This document shows, in pieces, positions 28,556 to 41,268 of a stretch of 64,000 bases of DNA (its first letter is position 1; the number at the start of each line of letters is the position of its first letter). Location: positions 1 through 64,000 of the forward strand of contig NZ_CACVBR010000012.1 in the NCBI RefSeq assembly GCF_902728265.1, given 5' to 3'. The position numbers were made by a program, and so were the translations under genes. This DNA comes from Chryseobacterium potabilaquae. Lineage in GTDB: Bacteria > Bacteroidota > Bacteroidia > Flavobacteriales > Weeksellaceae. The notes under the pieces were generated by a model. The model did no database searches. It saw only the letters and a program-made list of their open reading frames with translations, and was not told where the DNA came from.

Positions 28556-28972
28556 AATGATTTTATTTGATTTTTGAACAATAAGTAAAAAGATAAAAAC
28601 AGATTTTGTTTTTACATTCTTATTCATTTTTTAGACAATAGGATAATACAGTTCAGACTATTTGAACTGTGCATTTTTCAAGCAAGAGTAAATGCTTGAA
28701 CATTGGTAATATTTATAACTCAATTTTAATGATATAAAAATAACATTTTCCCTGTACCTACCAAAAGATATTTCTGTAAATGTCTTCTAAATTACTGTTA
28801 TCCACATTTAATGAAAATTTAGAGGGTATAATTTATAGAATATAACATAAGGTAAATATCCGCTCAATACTGTACAGCAGATAAATAGGAATAATTCTAT
28901 GAATCAAAAATTATCCACATTCAATTGTGGATAAAATATTAATTTTAACATCTATTTTATACTTTGTATTGT
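28556..28972. other. Gene-free AT-rich stretch with hairpins and a DnaA-box cluster
   Basis: No gene seen. It holds two adjacent hairpins, ACAGTTCA / TGAACTGT (28648-28670) and TTCAAGCA / TGCTTGAA (28677-28700), and, further right, three perfect DnaA boxes listed separately. Confidence 0.6.
28798..28934. promoter_or_regulatory. Cluster of three perfect DnaA boxes
   Basis: TTATCCACA at 28798-28806 and 28911-28919, and its complement TGTGGATAA at 28926-28934; the last two form an inverted pair 6 bp apart. Only one other copy was noticed in the window (62641, inside a coding sequence). The cluster is in AT-rich non-coding DNA, as an origin or a DnaA-titrating site would be. Gene orientation around it (left mostly plus, right mostly minus) does not favour the main origin. 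Confidence 0.65.
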
Positions 28973-29007
28973 AAATATCACTATATTTACTATGTAATAT
29001 CACTGAA

Positions 29008-29067
29008 GTGGAAACCTATTTTGCATTTTTCAGCTTTGAAATCGCAATTAAATTTATAAAAATTTAA
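29008..29067 (+). CDS. 19-codon GTG-start frame inside repeat A (possible)
   Basis: Would encode METYFAFFSFEIAIKFIKI, a hydrophobic peptide. The stop codon overlaps the 5' arm of the terminator hairpin. The same frame is kept in copy B, where the only change inside it (ACC to ACA) is silent. Speculative: the repeats are almost identical anyway. Confidence 0.25.
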   Translation: METYFAFFSFEIAIKFIKI

Positions 29068-29094
29068 GCATAGCATTGTCGGCTATGCTTTTTT
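29066..29094 (+). terminator. Terminator hairpin in repeat A
   Basis: AAGCATAGC / GCTATGCTT, 7-nt loop, six T. Works best on the plus strand. Confidence 0.75.
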
Positions 29095-29162
29095 ATTGTT
29101 GTCTAATAAAAAAAATGAGATGTTTTTATCTACTGAATCCGTTCCTAAAGAACGGGTTCTTT

Positions 29163-29491
29163 GTATTTTAGATATTCAGAGGTAGTTAAAGAAATTCAAC
29201 CTTATTTTAATAATAAAAAACCTCTTGAAATAAATTCAAGAGGCACCAATCACACATATATCTAAATTAATAACCATTTGACATATGTCTTACAATTAAA
29301 CCTTTCCCATATAATTAGTTTTTTAATTATTATACAACTAGAGCTCCAAAACATATAATATATTAATTTACAGATACTTAAAACAATCCTTATCAGCATT
29401 AAAATCCAAAAAATGGACTTTTGTCTTTTTTTTGGAAAACGATATAATGAAAGTCTAGCCCCATTCTTTTTTCTATCCTCCTTTACCTATA
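29163..29491 (-). pseudogene. Deletion scar of a tandem paralogue of the large T9SS gene
   Basis: Read on the minus strand, 29440-29319 resembles the 5' leader of the large gene (shared blocks include TTGTATAATAATTA and the GTCCAAAAAATGGA-like hairpin followed by A/T runs), and 29285-29214 resembles its 3' end: GTAAGA.ATG..AAATGGTTAT, then TATATGTGTGATTGG and the same terminator. The coding sequence between is missing; only an ATG-GGA-AAG-GTT-TAA remnant (29310-29296) is left at the junction. Best read as a former second copy collapsed to its two ends. Confidence 0.65.
29214..29243 (-). terminator. Terminator left behind by the deleted paralogue
   Basis: CCTCTTGAA / TTCAAGAGG stem with a 5-nt loop and a T run on the minus strand; the same hairpin recurs at 29492-29521. 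Confidence 0.85.
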
Positions 29492-29521
29492 GAAAAAACC
29501 TCTTGAATTAAATTCAAGAGG
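29492..29521 (-). terminator. Terminator of the large T9SS gene
   Basis: CCTCTTGAA / TTCAAGAGG with a TTAAT-type loop and TTTTTT tail on the minus strand, 37 bp after the stop. Confidence 0.9.
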
Positions 29522-29557
29522 TACCAATCACACATATATCCTAAATCAAATAACCAT

Positions 29558-32500
29558 TTACATTCTTACCATCATTTTTTTAGAGTATGTTTTTCCTTCA
29601 GAGTCTGTTACTTTTAGTAAATAAACTCCTTTTATTTCAGCAGGCAAATCAATTTTAAGTTCTTCTACAGATTTAGCTTCTTTATTTAAAACATTATGCC
29701 CTTGATAATCAAATATTTCAGCTTTATTTATTTTTTTATTAGTAAACTCACTTCCCAATCGATGTTTTAGAAGAATATAGGCAACATCAGTCATTGGATT
29801 AGGATAAAGCACTACTTCAATCATTTTTTGTTCATCTTCTTTAGACTGTATTGTATTCATCACAGTATTCGTATCTAAAGAGCTTTCATTATCAAACTGA
29901 ATAGTTGCCTTATTAAGAATGACAGTATTAGGCTGTATATTCTTTTTAGGAGAGACTGAAAAAGTTATATATCCTTGAGATCTCTCTGAATCCTGGCTAG
30001 TAGGTGGTAAAAATACATTCTCAATTTTGAAAATAATTTTATTATCAGAAATCTCAGTACTCACATTACCATGACTCGTAGACATAATTTTAAATGTTTC
30101 AAGATCTAATTCCTCTGGTAATCTGTCTATAATTGTTACATTTTGAGTAGCAAAGTTTCCAACATTTTCAAATCTTATGGTATAAGTGAGCTCTTGATTC
30201 GGTAAAATATACCCTTTATCTCCATATCCTTTAGGAGACACAAATATGTCATTAGGATCTATGGCTCCATACACTGTATATTTTTGAGTCACTTTATTAT
30301 TTCCAAGAACACAATCATTTGAAGAATTAATTACTTCTCCGCTAAAATCCAACTCATCTCCAATGGAAACTGAAACATCTGTTCCTGTCATAAAAGTAAT
30401 GACTTTATTGTCAAAAGGGTTAATAGGGCCCATATTCCAGCTATATCGGATATAGTTTTTACCATTTTCTGTAAAATTAACTTTCTGAGCAATTGGCATG
30501 GAAGGATTCGTAATGCTTACAGTAGCAGGGGTAACAAAATTAACGACACTAGCATTAGAGATATTTCGAGATATATTACTTACTACCATTTTAAACTGAT
30601 TATTAGTATACCCTTTTCTAATGGCAGTCCCCCCCATACTCATTTTTAAATCTGTTCCTGCACAAGTTGCATTCGCTGCAATATAAATATTTTGAGTAGG
30701 CAAATAATTACTTAGATCATAGTGAACTAAAGAACCTGCTGACAATCCATTCTCCTCTAGTATCTTCAAGTCCACACTGTTTTGTGTAACAAAAAAGTTA
30801 AATACACCATTATCATTTGCATATACTTTTACATTATTTGGTGATACTTTTAGCCCTGCTCTAGCTACTACAGGCTCATTATCTTGTTTTTGTCCATCAT
30901 TATTACTATCAAAATATACAATACCGGTAACTTTTGTTTGAACAGGCTCCGTTATCTCAAGAATTTGATTAATAGCAATATTATTAAGTGTTTGTGTAAT
31001 TCCACTTGGCCATTTTACCGTAATGGTTTTAACAATAGTAGCATTTCCTAAACCAAAATGTTGGGTATAACTACTCTGCCCTCCAAAACCACTTTGACTG
31101 TTCACCTCTCTCATTTGAACCTTAGTTCCTGTTTCTACATATACTTTTGCTCCAATTGCAGACCCGTTACTTACAGTAGCTTTTAAATTAATTTCTATCC
31201 ATTTATTACTATTCCCATTATTAATAAAAATATGATTTTTCTGATTAGAATGAGTCGCTACAGCTAAATCCAAATCTCCATCGTGATCAAAATCACTCCA
31301 CGCATGCCCAAAGGAAAGTCCAAAATTATAAGTAATTGCTTCATCTCTATTTTCAGTAAAGTTGCCATTTCCATCATTAAAATATAAAAACTTTCTAATT
31401 CTATCATTGGTAACAAACAAATCTAGATCACCATCATTATCGATATCAGCGAAGCTACATCCATGAGAACTTCCTCCTTGATTTACAATAGAATTTGTAA
31501 TTTTTTCAAAATTGCCATTTCCAAGATTTTTGTATAAAAAATTGCTTGTAGTATTGGAATTGGTAACAAATAAATCTAAATCGCCATCATTATCAATATC
31601 TCCCCAACAGCTTCCTACCGATTTACCACCTTCTTGATTTATAATAATATTTTTCTTAGAAAAAGTACCATTCCCATCATTATGAAATAAAGAGTTTTTA
31701 CTACCAGATCCATTAGGGACAAACAAATCCATCAATCCATCTTGATCATAATCTGCCCATGTCGGCCCAAGCGACGAATTGGCTTCTAAAGGAATAGCAT
31801 CAGCAGTTTCTTTTGCGAAAGCACCATTACTGGTATTTTTATGTAATTCATTATATTTCGTAGGAAAATAATTACACATGAATAAGTCTACTTTATTATC
31901 ATTATTATAATCTGCAAAAGCTCCACCGTGATAATAAGAAACATCTTGAGTAAAGGATTTTGTGTTATCTGCCACTAAAACTCCATTGTCATTTCTATAA
32001 AAACGATTAGGTTTTTGAGTATTATTGAGTACTAATAAATCTTCATCTCCATCATTATCTATATCTGCCCAAGTATTACTCATAGAAATTCCATCCTCAG
32101 GCATTACTTGGCCTGCCGTAAAACCTCCATGTTTATTGTTCATAAATATTAAATTAGGAGCTGCAGTTCCCATATCGGTAACATATATATCATCATAACC
32201 ATCGTTATTAATATCAATCCAACTAATCGTCCATGAATTGGTGCTTACCGCATTAAAAACAGGATCTTCCAAATGTGAGAAAATTAATTTAGATGTATTA
32301 TTAGTTTCCACAGATACTGATTTTGTACTCGTAGATTGTTGCGTCTCTCCATTCACTTTTCCTGTTACTACAGTTTCTACAGTCGAGTTGAGTACAGTAC
32401 CAATCAGCTCTCCGTTATTAGCGCCTACTGTAGCCATTACTTTTGTTTCTACTTGATAGGTTGAATTAGGCTGAAGAGTAGGTAAGTTATTATATTCTAC

Positions 32501-34180
32501 TTTAGTTTTATCCGCAAGTTCTGTAATAGTGCCTGGTCTTTGTGTTTGGTTTGGATTAATTATTTTAGATTCAATAACTTTAAGCCCATCTTGTACAATC
32601 ACTTCCACAGTGGGCGATGTTACCTCCGCGCTCGTTTTAATTTGAGAGACGATAGTTGCTTGTTCTTTCGGGATAAGGGTATCATCATTTATAGTACTCA
32701 CTTGGCTAAAAGAATGTCCTAATGAACTCCCTGTATAACACATCCAGTTATCATTAAAATTACTATTCATAACCGCAATATCATTATTACTAGTCACTAA
32801 TAAATAAGGTCTTTCTACACCGGAATTAGTTCCTGTTCCATTATAAAATGCTTTCCACTCTGCTAAACTTATTGAGCAGTCAACATATTTTTCTGGAGCT
32901 ATTGTAAAAGTTTTACTAAATTTCGTACCATTTGTAAGAGCATCTTTTACGGTAACCGTGGCTCCTATTTTTGAAAATAAATATAAATGAGAGAAAGATC
33001 CATTATATTTTGAACCGGTTAAAGGATTAGTAACATTAATTTCATTTCCGGGAGGGGCAATATAGGTTAAGAAATTTTTGCCGGCGGTCGTTCCGTTTTC
33101 TGAAGAAACCATAGTAGCCATATCTGAAGTTCCCGGTTGGCCTGTTTCAAACCAATTGCCTTCAAAAACAGAAACTTTTTTTCCTGCGGAACAAGTAATT
33201 CTGAAAACATTAGGATAAGAAACATTTCCATTGGTTTTTCCTACCCAATCTCCCGCAGCTAACCGATTAAGAGAAAAGCTTTTCACAGCAACCCAATTAC
33301 CATTTACAAAGCGATCTAGTTGTACTGTATTAGAGTTATCCCAACTTACTATTCTAATTTCTTGCTCTCCACCCGATTGGTATGGAACAGCAAAATACAT
33401 CAATTCTCCTGAAGAGCTTCCATTGGAAGTCGGAACATAGCCCCCACCGTCTCGTTCGTTTCCATAGAGAGCCCCGTATTGCATTGTGACAGGTTTATTT
33501 GCAATCAACATGTAGGTTTCTCCAGAAATCATCACATCTCTTCCGAGTGTCGAATTGTAAATTAAATCTTGGCCTCTGTTGATGGTTTTAGAAAAAACTT
33601 TAACCGGATTCTCCATATTAACATCAGTAAACCCAGTATTAGTTTTAGGTTGAGTAGAAATTTTATAAAAATCTATTACTGTATTATCTTGATAAGCAAA
33701 TACATTAATATCTCTATTAGAAGAAGTAATCATAGGCGCATACACCATAAATTTTTGCCCGATTGAACTTTTATCAACACTGGGAACCCAATCATGTTGC
33801 CAATCACTATTGGTACTTTGAGAAGTATATACTAATTTATTTGATTTTACAATAAAATAATCCCCATCCCATTTTAAGGTCCCTCCAGAAGCATAACGCG
33901 CATCATCATTAATTCCATTGTCTTTAATATATAAAATGTAACTTTGTCCTGCCTTTAAGATTCCCGATTTAGAATCATCAGTATCTCCATCTGCACCATC
34001 ATCAATGATATTAAATTCTGTATCATCATATATTGCAGTGACTATCAGACAAACATTCCTTTGTACCGCATCAGCGTTTGGTGGAACATATATTTGAAAA
34101 TAGGTTGATGGTTCTCCGGTTGCTTGTATTTTACTTATTCCTATGAGTATAATAAGTAAAGTGATAAATCTTTTTAACAT
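29558..34180 (-). CDS. Large secreted FG-GAP/UnbV protein with type IX sorting domain
   Basis: 1540 residues from ATG 34180, which starts the signal peptide (MLKRFITLLIILIGISKIQA); the frame to 34234 is longer but lacks one. In order: an N-terminal part (about 20-480) resembling IgGFc-binding/adhesion domains (YFQIYVPPNADAVQRNVCLIVTA); a seven-bladed propeller of FG-GAP/VCBS repeats with Ca-binding loops (DINNDGYDD, DIDNDGDED, DYNNDNKVD, DYDQDGLMD, DIDNDGDLD twice, DFDHDGDLD); an ASPIC/UnbV domain (GSAIGAKVYVETGTKVQMREV, TVKWPSGITQTLNNI); a DUF11-like domain (ENVGNFATQNVTIIDRLPEEL); and a C-terminal type A sorting signal (VVLYPNPMTD...GVYLLKVTDSEGK) for export by the type IX system. Probably a surface adhesin. 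Bracketed by 190-bp direct repeats. Confidence 0.9.
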   Translation of the reverse strand: MLKRFITLLIILIGISKIQATGEPSTYFQIYVPPNADAVQRNVCLIVTAIYDDTEFNIIDDGADGDTDDSKSGILKAGQSYILYIKDNGINDDARYASGGTLKWDGDYFIVKSNKLVYTSQSTNSDWQHDWVPSVDKSSIGQKFMVYAPMITSSNRDINVFAYQDNTVIDFYKISTQPKTNTGFTDVNMENPVKVFSKTINRGQDLIYNSTLGRDVMISGETYMLIANKPVTMQYGALYGNERDGGGYVPTSNGSSSGELMYFAVPYQSGGEQEIRIVSWDNSNTVQLDRFVNGNWVAVKSFSLNRLAAGDWVGKTNGNVSYPNVFRITCSAGKKVSVFEGNWFETGQPGTSDMATMVSSENGTTAGKNFLTYIAPPGNEINVTNPLTGSKYNGSFSHLYLFSKIGATVTVKDALTNGTKFSKTFTIAPEKYVDCSISLAEWKAFYNGTGTNSGVERPYLLVTSNNDIAVMNSNFNDNWMCYTGSSLGHSFSQVSTINDDTLIPKEQATIVSQIKTSAEVTSPTVEVIVQDGLKVIESKIINPNQTQRPGTITELADKTKVEYNNLPTLQPNSTYQVETKVMATVGANNGELIGTVLNSTVETVVTGKVNGETQQSTSTKSVSVETNNTSKLIFSHLEDPVFNAVSTNSWTISWIDINNDGYDDIYVTDMGTAAPNLIFMNNKHGGFTAGQVMPEDGISMSNTWADIDNDGDEDLLVLNNTQKPNRFYRNDNGVLVADNTKSFTQDVSYYHGGAFADYNNDNKVDLFMCNYFPTKYNELHKNTSNGAFAKETADAIPLEANSSLGPTWADYDQDGLMDLFVPNGSGSKNSLFHNDGNGTFSKKNIIINQEGGKSVGSCWGDIDNDGDLDLFVTNSNTTSNFLYKNLGNGNFEKITNSIVNQGGSSHGCSFADIDNDGDLDLFVTNDRIRKFLYFNDGNGNFTENRDEAITYNFGLSFGHAWSDFDHDGDLDLAVATHSNQKNHIFINNGNSNKWIEINLKATVSNGSAIGAKVYVETGTKVQMREVNSQSGFGGQSSYTQHFGLGNATIVKTITVKWPSGITQTLNNIAINQILEITEPVQTKVTGIVYFDSNNDGQKQDNEPVVARAGLKVSPNNVKVYANDNGVFNFFVTQNSVDLKILEENGLSAGSLVHYDLSNYLPTQNIYIAANATCAGTDLKMSMGGTAIRKGYTNNQFKMVVSNISRNISNASVVNFVTPATVSITNPSMPIAQKVNFTENGKNYIRYSWNMGPINPFDNKVITFMTGTDVSVSIGDELDFSGEVINSSNDCVLGNNKVTQKYTVYGAIDPNDIFVSPKGYGDKGYILPNQELTYTIRFENVGNFATQNVTIIDRLPEELDLETFKIMSTSHGNVSTEISDNKIIFKIENVFLPPTSQDSERSQGYITFSVSPKKNIQPNTVILNKATIQFDNESSLDTNTVMNTIQSKEDEQKMIEVVLYPNPMTDVAYILLKHRLGSEFTNKKINKAEIFDYQGHNVLNKEAKSVEELKIDLPAEIKGVYLLKVTDSEGKTYSKKMMVRM

Positions 34181-34417
34181 AGTATTTAATTTTCTAATTA
34201 TTATACAATTAGAATTCCCAAACAAATAAAACAATGATTATCAATAACTTAAATATTGTAGCATAGTTGATAAAAATCCATTTTTTGGACTTTTATCTTT
34301 TTTTTGGAATGATAACGGAGAGGAGTAATGGAATATCTATAAATCTAATACAATCTAAAAACTGGAGATAAAAAAAGTCCCAACAATATTTAATATTAAA
34401 TTCATATTTCATATTAA
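34181..34417 (-). promoter_or_regulatory. 5' leader and promoter region of the large T9SS gene
   Basis: Non-coding. It contains a TTGTATAATAATTA block and a hairpin (TCCA / TGGA around six A/T) followed by a long run of A or T near 34280-34305, both shared with the scar at 29319-29440, so these are likely functional control elements. No exact TAnnTTTG box was found. Confidence 0.45.
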
Positions 34418-34452
34418 AAATATCACTATATTTACTATGTAATATCACTGAA

Positions 34453-34512
34453 GTGGAAACATATTTTGCATTTTTCAGCTTTGAAATCGCAATTAAATTT
34501 ATAAAAATTTAA
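34453..34512 (+). CDS. 19-codon GTG-start frame inside repeat B (possible)
   Basis: Same peptide as in repeat A; the third codon is ACA instead of ACC, both Thr. Terminator overlaps the stop codon. Confidence 0.25.
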   Translation: METYFAFFSFEIAIKFIKI

Positions 34513-34538
34513 GCATAGCATTGTCGGCTATGCTTTTT
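34511..34538 (+). terminator. Terminator hairpin in repeat B
   Basis: AAGCATAGC / GCTATGCTT with seven T; same as copy A. Confidence 0.75.
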
Positions 34539-34658
34539 TTATTGTTGTCTAATTAAAAAAATGAGATGTTTTATCTACTGAATCCGTTCCTAAAGAACGG
34601 GTTCTTTATATTTTTATATTTAAAAAGTTTTTAGGAAATTTAATGGTACAATTACTAA

Positions 34659-34730
34659 GGCCTCATAGTTCAACGGATAGAATAGAAGTTTCCTAAACTT
34701 TAGATCCAGGTTCGATTCCTGGTGAGGCTA
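34659..34730 (+). tRNA. tRNA-Arg (anticodon CCT)
   Basis: Folds as a standard cloverleaf: acceptor GGCCTCA / TGAGGCT (outer G-T wobble), T8-A9, D-arm GTTC / GAAT, anticodon stem GAAGT / ACTTT with loop TTCCTAA (anticodon CCT, 34692-34694), T-arm CCAGG-TTCGATT-CCTGG, discriminator A. No encoded CCA. It reads AGG codons. Confidence 0.93.
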
Positions 34731-34902
34731 CAAAAAACCTCTACAAATACTATCGAAAAGATGCTCCTAAATTATCTCCATTATGTGAATTATGAAAGAA
34801 TTCTCTCTTTAAGAACTATTTTGAAACAACATACTTAAGTGTTGAGAATTGATGATAATGACGATCATCATAAATTATCAGCAACGGATAAGAGTCACTA
34901 AT

Positions 34903-36116: not shown

Positions 36117-36533
36117 TTAAATGATAATTAATTTAATAATAATCAGTATAAAAATAATCAAACATACAGGAGTATAATACTTTCCATCCAGCCTTGCAAA
36201 TTCGGTTCCGTTAATTTTCTTGAAGAACCCTACATATTTGAAATCACCGATAGCCCTCATAAGAAAAATGATCGCTACAATGGTTTTTGAATATAGAGAG
36301 ACTTTGGGAGATATGAAATCCAAATTTTCATTATTCATCAATAAAATAAAACTCAGCAGAATTATTCCCACTCCAAAACACGAAAAAAAACTTGGGGTAA
36401 AGAGAGGAGTACCTTCTGGCGTAGTTGGTACAGCTTGTTGTTTCCCCCAATTACCTCCAAAAGCCCAATATATATGTATACCTCCTATACATAAAAAAAT
36501 TAAGCTTAATGCTATATTACAAAATAGATTCAT
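36117..36533 (-). CDS. DUF3995 membrane protein
   Basis: 138 residues with four transmembrane segments; ALSLIFLCIGGIHIYWAFGGNWGKQQAVPT at the N-terminus and MRAIGDFKYVGFFKK in the middle are hallmarks of DUF3995. Function unknown. Its start lies inside the end of the FAD monooxygenase gene (17-bp overlap), so translation is coupled and it belongs to the anthranilate operon. Confidence 0.82.
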   Translation of the reverse strand: MNLFCNIALSLIFLCIGGIHIYWAFGGNWGKQQAVPTTPEGTPLFTPSFFSCFGVGIILLSFILLMNNENLDFISPKVSLYSKTIVAIIFLMRAIGDFKYVGFFKKINGTEFARLDGKYYTPVCLIIFILIIIKLIII

Positions 36534-37680
36534 ATTGGTAAATATCTAACATTTTCTTAGTATCTCTATAAGCAAAATTGGACGGAATAGCACTCATGAT
36601 TGTATTTCTTAGCCATATCCCTATCGTATGATTAAGTTGTGACATATTACCAATTTTTCTGCTTCTTTCAACAATCCATGAAGCTTTATCTCTTCTAATT
36701 TCATTGAATTTTGCAAATGCTTGTTCGCCATCATATCTTTTTAAAGATTCAGAGAGGATATATGCATCTTCTATTGCTTGGCAGGCTCCTTGTCCTAAAT
36801 TAGGTGTCATAGCATGCGCAGCATCACCCACTAAACAAACTCTAGACTTGTACCATTTATGAAGTGTTTTGAAATCATAGATTTTTCTGGTAATAATTGT
36901 CCTTTCTTCAGTACTATTGATTATATCTAAAACATCTGGATGAAAATCTTTAAATATATAAGTAAGTCTAGATAGAGTAATAGGATCATTATAAGGAGTA
37001 TTAACCAAGGCATACCAATATATTTGATGACTATTGATTTTTACAAAACCAAAACGTTTTCCCTTCCCCCAAAGCTCATTAAGCTCATCTGTATATTTGG
37101 ACATCTCAATATTAGCAATCCCCCTCCAGCACAATTGTCCTGCATCAAGCATTTCGACCTCTGAAAAATAACTATTTCTCACTTGAGAGTGTATACCATC
37201 CGCTCCAATAATAATATCAGCATTACTCTCTGTCGAGTCTTTGAAAATCATGCTTAACTGATCACTTACTAGATTGATCTTCTCTAATCTTTTTCCAAGG
37301 AATTCCTCACACTTGATCTTAGAATTGAGAATATGATACAATTTTTCTCTATGAATAGCTACCATATTAACGTTATATAATGTAGAGAAAGGTTCCATAT
37401 TGATACATGACAAAACTTTTAAATTTTCATTGGTGATATTCATCCTTTTTAAAATATTCCCCTCACTAGTCAATTCCTCATGTAATCCTAGTTTTTTCAT
37501 TATCTGCATAGCATTACATGCTAACATTATTCCAGCCCCTTTAGTTGATTGTTCTATCGTATCGGATTGCTCATACAATTTAATATTCTTATATCCTGAC
37601 TGTTCCAAAGCCAAAGCGAGTGTAAGGCCTCCAATGCCTTTACCTACAATGCCTATCGAAATTTCATTATTTTTCATCAT
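36517..37680 (-). CDS. FAD-dependent aromatic monooxygenase (group A)
   Basis: 387 residues. GxGxxG FAD site IGIVGKGIGGLTLALALEQSG (residues 8-28), DG motif IIIGADGIHSQVR near 155, GD motif VCLVGDAAHAMTPNLGQGACQAIEDA near 283. Closest in layout to salicylate-hydroxylase/urate-hydroxylase/TetX-type enzymes, which hydroxylate aromatic rings with NAD(P)H and oxygen. Lying directly behind the anthranilate synthase genes, it probably hydroxylates anthranilate or a later intermediate; that is inference from position. Two adjacent start codons (37680, 37677) are possible. Confidence 0.85.
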   Translation of the reverse strand: MMKNNEISIGIVGKGIGGLTLALALEQSGYKNIKLYEQSDTIEQSTKGAGIMLACNAMQIMKKLGLHEELTSEGNILKRMNITNENLKVLSCINMEPFSTLYNVNMVAIHREKLYHILNSKIKCEEFLGKRLEKINLVSDQLSMIFKDSTESNADIIIGADGIHSQVRNSYFSEVEMLDAGQLCWRGIANIEMSKYTDELNELWGKGKRFGFVKINSHQIYWYALVNTPYNDPITLSRLTYIFKDFHPDVLDIINSTEERTIITRKIYDFKTLHKWYKSRVCLVGDAAHAMTPNLGQGACQAIEDAYILSESLKRYDGEQAFAKFNEIRRDKASWIVERSRKIGNMSQLNHTIGIWLRNTIMSAIPSNFAYRDTKKMLDIYQYESIL

Positions 37681-39904: not shown

Positions 39905-41268
39905 GGTAGTGTCTCACTAACTGTGTAAGTTAAAAAGTTATTCTGGAAAATTTAGAGCTCTTACAGCTCAAGAAATTTTTCGGAACTCACTTTTTATTAT
40001 TTTTAACCATTACATAGTTATGATTGACAAAGAAGATTTACTAAACAACAAGGACTTCTACAAGTCCTTCAAAAATGGAGAAGATTTAACCTCATTCTTT
40101 AAAGAGCTGCACAAGCGAGCTGTAGAACATATGCTTGATGCCGAGTTGGACTCTCACCTGGATAATGAGAAACACCAGAAGTCCCCCACTGGAAATTACC
40201 GAAACGGACACGGCAGTAAGAAAATAAAATCGTCTTTTGGAGAGTCTGAAATTAAAGTTCCAAGGGATCGTGAAGGGAGTTTTGAGCCTGCATTAGTTCC
40301 CAAAAGGCACAACATTATTGATGGTTTGGAAAACATCATCATCTCATTTTATGCCAAGGGAATGAGTGTATCAGACATTGAACAACAGATCCATGAGATG
40401 TATGATTTTGAGGTTTCTACTTCTACCATATCACGAATAACCAATGCGGTTACAAGTGAAGTGGTGAGTTGGCAGAATCGTCCCCTTGAAGATCTATATC
40501 TCATTGTTTGGATGGATGGGATTGTTTTCAAAGTAAGGGAAAACTCCAAAGTCATTAATAAAACTATTTATCTGGCTGTTGGACTAAAGCGTGACGGAAG
40601 GAAAGAAGTCTTGGGAATGTGGCTTGGAAAAAATGAAAGCTCAGCCTTCTGGATGAGTGTTCTAACGGATTTAAAAGCCCGAGGTGTAGAAGATATTCTC
40701 ATTACCGCCACTGATAATTTAAACGGATTTACCCAGACTATACGTTCTGTGTTTCCTGAATCTCAAACTCAAATTTGTGTGGTACATCAAATCAGAAATG
40801 CCTGTAAATATGTAGTGTGGAAGGACAGAAAAGAGTTCTCTGCAGATATGAAGCATATTTATACTGCTCCAACAAAACAAGCCGCAGAAGCAGCTCTAAA
40901 TGATTTTGCAGGAAAATGGGAAAGCAAATATTCGTATGCTATTGCATCTTGGAGGAATAATTGGGATGAGCTGACTATATTTTTTGAATTTCCTTTAGAG
41001 ATACGTAAGATCATTTATACCACTAATTTAATTGAAAATCTCAACGGAAAAATAAGAAAATACACCAAAAACAAGATGTCTTTCCCTACAGATGATGCAG
41101 TAATGAAATCAGTGTATCTCGCTTTAAAAGAAGCTACTAAAAAATGGACCATGCCTATTCGAAATTGGGGTATTGTTCTCAACCAATTTATGCTTATTTT
41201 TGAAAAAAGGCTCAGATTATAAAATCCAAGCCTAACTTTTTAACTTACACACTTTACGAGATAGTGTC
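39905..41268 (+). mobile_element. IS256-family insertion sequence
   Basis: 1364 bp, from GGTAGTGTCTC (39905-39915) to GAGATAGTGTC (41258-41268). The imperfect terminal inverted repeats share GTGTAAGTTAAAAAGTTA as their inner block. One intact transposase gene inside. The 8 bp outside the ends differ (TCATCAAA versus AGAAACTT), so there is no target duplication. Confidence 0.85.
40020..41222 (+). CDS. IS256-family transposase
   Basis: 400 residues, full length, with the mutator-type DDE core: Asp in [13 protein letters not shown] near 168, Asp in [17 protein letters not shown] near 235, CVVHQIRN (C/D2H motif) near 259, and Glu in [19 protein letters not shown] near 340. The N-terminal helical part starts [17 protein letters not shown]. 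No frameshift, so the element may still move. Confidence 0.95.

Follow-up and report, generated by a model that had tools for sequence, protein, structure and literature searches.

In this work we analysed a 64,000-nt stretch of the Chryseobacterium potabilaquae genome (RefSeq assembly GCF_902728265.1, contig NZ_CACVBR010000012.1, positions 1 to 64,000 of the forward strand; hereafter the window), in which two near-identical direct repeats, here named R1 and R2, lie on either side of a gene for a giant secreted protein. With good confidence we consider R1 and R2 to be copies of a small RNA gene, R, that occurs across the family (Weeksellaceae) and was probably duplicated in the window's lineage, with the giant gene between the copies. 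R shows a conserved secondary structure with compensatory changes across genera, as is characteristic of structured small RNA genes. As predicted from its sequence, the RNA would be about 170 nt long and transcribed toward a tRNA-Arg(CCT) gene, with its own promoter, two successive terminators (T1 and T2) and perhaps a 19-codon open reading frame (ORF) before the first of them. The features of the two copies are listed below; A1 and A2 are the genus-wide and family-wide alignments described further on.

28911-28934, no strand: inverted pair of DnaA-box-type 9-mers, TTATCCACA-N6-TGTGGATAA, 71 bp upstream of the R1 core
28982-29163, + strand: R1, the nmrA-proximal copy of the candidate small RNA gene (core as modelled; alignments A1 and A2)
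28982-28990, + strand: promoter-like block of R1, TATATTTAC (TACATTTAC in most copies), mostly invariant columns in A1
29008-29067, + strand: possible 19-codon ORF in R1 (VETYFAFFSFEIAIKFIKI)
29068-29095, + strand: T1 of R1, a hairpin followed by a T-run
29135-29162, + strand: T2 of R1, a hairpin followed by a T-run
34376-34426, + strand: upstream region of R2, near the genus consensus by eye; inverted 9-mers not recognisable (best site with 6 mismatches)
34427-34608, + strand: R2, the tRNA-proximal copy of the candidate small RNA gene
34453-34512, + strand: possible 19-codon ORF in R2, its peptide identical to that of R1 (ACA for ACC, synonymous)
34513-34540, + strand: T1 of R2, hairpin and T-run (alignments A1 and A2)
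34580-34607, + strand: T2 of R2, hairpin and T-run (alignments A1 and A2)

An earlier note on this DNA had placed the repeats at 28973-29162 and 34418-34607, in direct orientation, about 5.4 kb apart and differing at about four positions. Sequence comparison bore this out: the spacing is 5445 bp, and within the 190 bp the copies differ by 2 substitutions and 2 one-base indels (4 differences). The base directly after this span (29163/34608) also differs. Weaker similarity reaches further left (93% over 227 bp from 28944/34389), and the modelled core of R1 starts at 28982, compared with 28973 for the repeat. The description of the repeats as non-coding stands only with a qualifier, as R looks like a gene itself. 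A BLAST search of the genome with R returned 41 matches, of which 2 were full-length (E 5e-101 and 2e-90) and 39 covered 14-40 bp; R is therefore neither a chance similarity nor a dispersed repeat. Dispersal through the genome, which the earlier note had named as an outcome that would speak against its proposal, was thus ruled out, no third full copy being found. The two copies are 97.3% identical, vs. at most 92.9% for R2 against any other species, and they share 2 residues that occur in 0 of the 34 other A1 sequences.

We determined the distribution of R in a collection with one genome per species. A search of the genome itself and 58 relatives found a single full copy in 34 of the 35 genomes of the same genus; R was absent from all 23 genomes of other families in this set, bar one 41-bp BLAST match (in G053) that a covariance model of R did not see. 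Of all 173 Chryseobacterium genomes in the collection, 170 carried R. Second matches in 9 other Chryseobacterium genomes were re-examined and proved to be a full copy only in G125, the other 8 being scraps of 28-84 bp. The covariance model, built from 36 sequences, found R in 243 of 320 genomes of the family and in 14 of 33 genera, with one match per positive genome and two only in the genome of the window (G000) and in G125; R1 and R2 score 196 and 190.7 bits by construction, R1 being part of the model. Outside the family, no convincing match came from 15 genomes representing 13 families (best E 0.02). A conserved 22-base block of R retrieved 101 stretches in named genomes; among the matches listed (80 of 101), all were from Chryseobacterium save Kaistella soli and one metagenome-assembled genome labelled Bacteroidales, and C. 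polytrichastri DSM 26899 occurred twice. As R is conserved and normally single-copy across the family, the repeat in the window is best seen as a duplicated copy of a family element, and it is not specific to the cassette with the giant gene.

The structural evidence was obtained from two alignments. In A2, which was fitted to the model derived from R and holds 34 distinct family rows, 93.7% of cells form standard pairs. Changes on both sides were seen for 33 of the 46 pairs, vs. 15.0 in column shuffles and 6-14 with the partners slid by 1-3 columns; the cells changed on both sides numbered 153, compared with 38.5 and 7-27, respectively. The T1 helix (helix 6) had 6 of 7 pairs and the T2 helix (helix 9) 10 of 10 pairs changed on both sides, each with 100% of cells paired. 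Weak matches L252-L257 were retained in A2, and L258 was searched and fell below the cut. Two loci, L194 and L237, appear to be a single Kaistella soli locus; they form one identical row in the covariation test and were counted separately (n = 26 other-genus loci) in the palindrome and start-codon counts given below. RNAalifold, applied to the MAFFT alignment A1 of 35 Chryseobacterium genomes only, also detected both-side changes, in 8 of 46 pairs. A1 shows conservation of the T1-T2 segment, of the body and of the promoter-like block, whose TATATTTAC/TACATTTAC letters we take to resemble flavobacterial promoters. That the T1 and T2 stems have changed in a compensatory way between genera suggests that this strand is transcribed.

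R apparently has no name or description in the databases and literature searched. Rfam 15 models gave no match over R in the window at E up to 5, and at R in four other loci (L242, L233, L239, L254) there were only overlaps below the gathering score, in L239 alone (L20_leader, E 0.059 and 0.13; Phe_leader, E 0.64). In the literature on R or on links between DnaA boxes and small RNAs, no title or abstract start among the papers listed describes R. We also considered whether R is the 6S RNA of these bacteria (6S-Flavo, RF01685), which is likewise a small, conserved, stand-alone RNA in the same genomes. This was rejected, since the 6S-Flavo match lies elsewhere than R in 7 of 8 genomes, those for which both positions were available. 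The 6S-Flavo-like RNA was found at one place per genome in 8 of 8 genomes tested (in the window's genome at G000:C4:40881-40985) with 44-56 bits vs. a gathering score of 85; the Rfam model seems a poor fit for this family.

Translation of the short ORF in R is possible. In most sequences a frame of 16-23 codons starts from an ATG or GTG close to core position 27 (exceptions are L235 with 33, L080 with 34 and L246 with 14). All 36 Chryseobacterium loci and 22 of the 26 from other genera have a start codon at core position 22-34; in each of these 22 other-genus loci its frame is the longest of the three, with the stop mostly near T1. Taking the first listed member of each genus, the frame is open for at least 16 codons in 10 of 13 genera vs. 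3.0 expected by letter shuffling (P about 7e-5; the genera are not independent of one another, and a value of 0.2 was assumed for two genera whose chosen member lacked the start codon). This retention favors a reading in which R is primarily a mini-gene encoding a peptide of some 20 aa, such as a small toxin or leader peptide, and the hairpins are merely its terminators. The codon-substitution test within Chryseobacterium gave no significant signal (of 1000 column shuffles, 75 reached the BLOSUM score and 235 the synonymous fraction; L060, L066 and L080 of the 36 sequences were excluded for frame-disturbing indels). In addition, L060 has a longer ORF in another frame, the predicted peptides vary widely from genus to genus, and the conserved T1-T2 segment lies outside the ORF. 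Part of the frame overlaps a conserved hairpin. We regard a mere mini-gene as possible, if rather doubtful.

Upstream of R1 lies an inverted pair of 9-mers, identified by us as presumptive DnaA boxes from the consensus, which is the sole exact match to its pattern in the genome. A scan of 12 genomes for TTATCCACA-N(4-8)-TGTGGATAA found the pattern exactly once in 8 of them and not in the other 4; all 8 occurrences are beside R. With up to 3 mismatches allowed, 28 of 36 Chryseobacterium copies and 16 of the 26 loci from other genera have the pair precisely at position -71 relative to the core, and a 17th locus of other genera has it at -100. Among 4000 random 120-bp windows of R loci taken as a control, 2 held the pair with 1-3 mismatches and 11 held it exactly, the latter presumably being the R sites themselves, since the sampled loci contain them. 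R1 thus carries an exact pair, and R2 none that is recognisable. The fixed spacing of the pair to R suggests an operator, and the paired sites hint at a link to DnaA.

R as a replication origin was ruled out in G028, where GC skew and gene strands put the likely origin near 3.05 Mb and R at 0.91 Mb; R lies there near the skew switch opposite the likely origin (20 sampled stretches), and the rRNA strands agree. By rRNA-strand geometry, in ten genomes that are related and so do not make ten independent tests, the midpoint estimates place R at 0.76-0.97 of the distance from origin to terminus, with a wide error (ranges 0.61-0.98). From the 11 genomes considered, G002 was omitted for its single rRNA match; partial rRNA matches and an off-contig rRNA of G003 were likewise disregarded. 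In the same kind of analysis dnaA itself is placed far from the rRNA-inferred origin, its midpoint lying at 0.56-0.79 to the terminus (G028, G013, G007, G010, G020, G025, G031, G003, G030, G034). The terminus-ward locus and the paired 9-mers at a fixed spot would fit a purely DNA element for recombination or regulation, made up of a terminator block and DnaA-type sites with no RNA of its own. We consider this unlikely, given the compensatory changes in T1 and T2, the conservation of the promoter-like block and body, and the keeping of R2 without a recognisable palindrome.

DnaA boxes beside tRNA genes are known from E. coli datA. The DnaA-box-type sites of the window likewise adjoin a tRNA gene, but they form a single inverted pair with a 6-bp gap. 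Regulated genes of the E. coli DnaA regulon have two closely spaced boxes upstream, with a preferred gap of 2-3 bp (PMC11317965). The window pair is similar in consisting of two close boxes upstream of a gene-like element and differs in its 6-bp gap and inverted orientation.

Between R1 and R2 and next to them, the following features were identified:

29215-29262, - strand: gene scar, 3'-end part; a 96% copy of the 3' flank and terminator of the giant gene (29493-29540)
29312-29440, - strand: gene scar, 5' part; a 76-83% copy of the region upstream of the giant gene (34183-34310), running into an ATG, with the coding region missing
29558-34180, - strand: giant secreted protein, 1540 aa from ATG
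34659-34731, + strand: tRNA-Arg(CCT), a frequent neighbor of R

The claim that the repeats bracket a large FG-GAP/UnbV gene was upheld by the ORF and domain matches. Profile searches assigned to the giant protein seven FG-GAP_3 stretches, UnbV_ASPIC, DUF7619 and Por_Secre_tail; its type IX C-terminal sorting domain matches PF18962 with 39.3 bits (cut-off 27) and TIGR04183 with 37 bits (cut-off 23). It is the only ORF of at least 80 aa between the copies, and four ORFs of 60-72 aa run antisense inside it. The gene scar that the earlier note had reported is real, the two flank copies being separated by 49 bp that hold just a few codons; such a pattern is as would be left when the coding region of a tandem paralogue is deleted. 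Two further claims also held up: inspection of ORFs and repeats detected neither a transposase in the repeat or the segment nor inverted repeats at the repeat ends, and tRNA-Arg(CCT) indeed lies beside R2. With its domains and sorting tail the giant protein is an ordinary member of the type IX-secreted FG-GAP/UnbV proteins of Bacteroidota; the unusual part is its bracketing by a duplicated candidate RNA gene. Its presence differs between species, full-length relatives (about 80% identity) being found in 5 of the 173 Chryseobacterium genomes, that of the window included. Three of these (G026, G087, G107) have it at one common locus, and the short contig of G070 holds only part of the G026-type flanks (64-69% vs. 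G026) in another arrangement. In none of the four other genomes does the gene share a contig with R, and the 11-20 kb fetched around it hold no R. The giant gene is thus sporadic and occupies the R site in the window's genome.

In G125 the two copies of R are 8.6 kb apart and enclose the genes for a TPR protein of 471 aa and a repeat protein of 1861 aa that matches no Pfam family. The copies are 90.5% alike over 317 bp, which takes in the last 40 bp of a neighboring hydrolase gene, and the copy nearer uvrA has the exact 9-mer pair, the other a degraded one. This points to an independent duplication of R around other genes. The right edges agree, near-identity stopping just past T2 in both genomes. 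On the left, detectable similarity reaches 38 bp beyond the core in the window vs. about 119 bp in G125, a difference that may reflect decay of the flank of R2. The different contents and the lack of a recombinase favor homologous or illegitimate recombination over a site-specific element. That the repeats arose as attachment sites duplicated by a small integrative element or transposon targeting the R/tRNA region would suit the common right edge and a highly variable locus that often adjoins a tRNA gene, but it is very unlikely: there is no integrase or transposase ORF in the 5.4 kb, no inverted repeat at the repeat ends and no R in plasmid or phage collections or viral contigs (the last searched with the exact pattern only), the repeated unit is an entire element, over 180 bp long and spread across the family, and the left edges differ, a weak point as flank decay could explain it.

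The R locus was compared across genomes. In 33 of 34 Chryseobacterium loci R has uvrA no more than 10 kb away, and in 26 of 34 a tRNA-Arg(CCT) gene is present in the 15-20 kb fetched around R. Loci of other genera in which uvrA and tRNA-Arg(CCT) flank R on opposite sides include L233, L237, L241, L245, L249 and L251. Gene content between these anchors is highly variable, so the R region is a variable zone around fixed anchors; in five loci (L049, L053, L057, L060, L065) R is inverted relative to uvrA.

Several observations weigh against R1 and R2 being copies of a family-wide RNA gene duplicated in this lineage. R was missing from 3 of the 173 Chryseobacterium genomes, all of them fragmented assemblies (320-600 contigs), and under stricter filters had no match in 77 of the 320 family genomes and 19 of the 33 genera. 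The fitting of A2 to a model derived from R biases it toward structure. The palindrome has at least 5 mismatches in 8 of 36 Chryseobacterium copies, R2 included, and is therefore dispensable to R. tRNA-Arg(CCT) was not found in the 17-20 kb around R in 8 of 34 loci (L047, L055, L059, L062, L063, L067, L077, L080), where it may have been moved or lost. Finally, the closeness of R1 and R2 could come from recent duplication, gene conversion or selection: as R itself is conserved, structured and family-wide, near-identity may reflect selection or gene conversion besides recent origin.

In our reading of R as a duplicated small RNA gene, the ancestral order would have been uvrA - R - tRNA-Arg(CCT), with a single R and the paired DnaA-box-type site at a fixed distance upstream. 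R would have been duplicated in the window's lineage as the giant gene and a since-deleted tandem paralogue came between the copies, after which R1 probably retained the paired site and R2 the consensus-like upstream region. The private residues shared by the copies, together with their diverged upstream regions, fit an in-lineage duplication in which the transcribed part was kept alike by selection or conversion. As the route, we favor homologous integration of incoming DNA carrying R. Recombination between R1 and R2 could delete the cassette, and its loss in this way is a plausible prediction; the single-R state, the expected product of such a deletion, is the normal state in other genomes. 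A bolder version, which we find speculative and improbable, would make R a family-wide, hitherto undescribed DnaA-controlled small RNA, possibly of dual function with a 20-aa peptide, that lies terminus-ward and ties expression to the replication cycle; its duplication in two lineages would have created a homology-flanked slot where large secreted-protein genes sit and could be lost.

To our knowledge, few small RNAs are known in Bacteroidota beyond Bacteroides and Flavobacterium. Nearly all Chryseobacterium genomes sampled carry R, a structured element in single copy, whose paired upstream sites suggest a link to DnaA that can be tested. The result also indicates that near-identical non-coding repeats around a gene may be a duplicated RNA gene and not necessarily recombination machinery. 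Rfp18 of Flavobacterium psychrophilum is described as an intergenic small RNA that affects protease mRNAs (PMC9723704). R resembles Rfp18 and other F. psychrophilum small RNAs in being small, intergenic, strongly structured by prediction and conserved beyond one species; R presumably belongs to a different family.

Other features of the R neighborhood were noted. tRNA-Arg(CCT) is downstream of R on the same strand at 73-81 bp in L233, L245 and L249, and on the strand opposite to R at 3-42 bp in L236, L237, L241 and L246 (L194:6312-6386 is grouped there as well), as if the tRNA gene alone had flipped. A defence system near R was looked for with PADLOC, and none of 6 nearby proteins matched at E 0.001. 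At 36517-37680 the window encodes an FAD-dependent monooxygenase of 387 aa, whose best NCBIfam match, PRK06753, is under its cut-off; Tet(X)/tetracycline-destructase models match it only far under theirs. The variable stretch right of the tRNA gene further contains an IS256-family transposase gene at 40020-41222.

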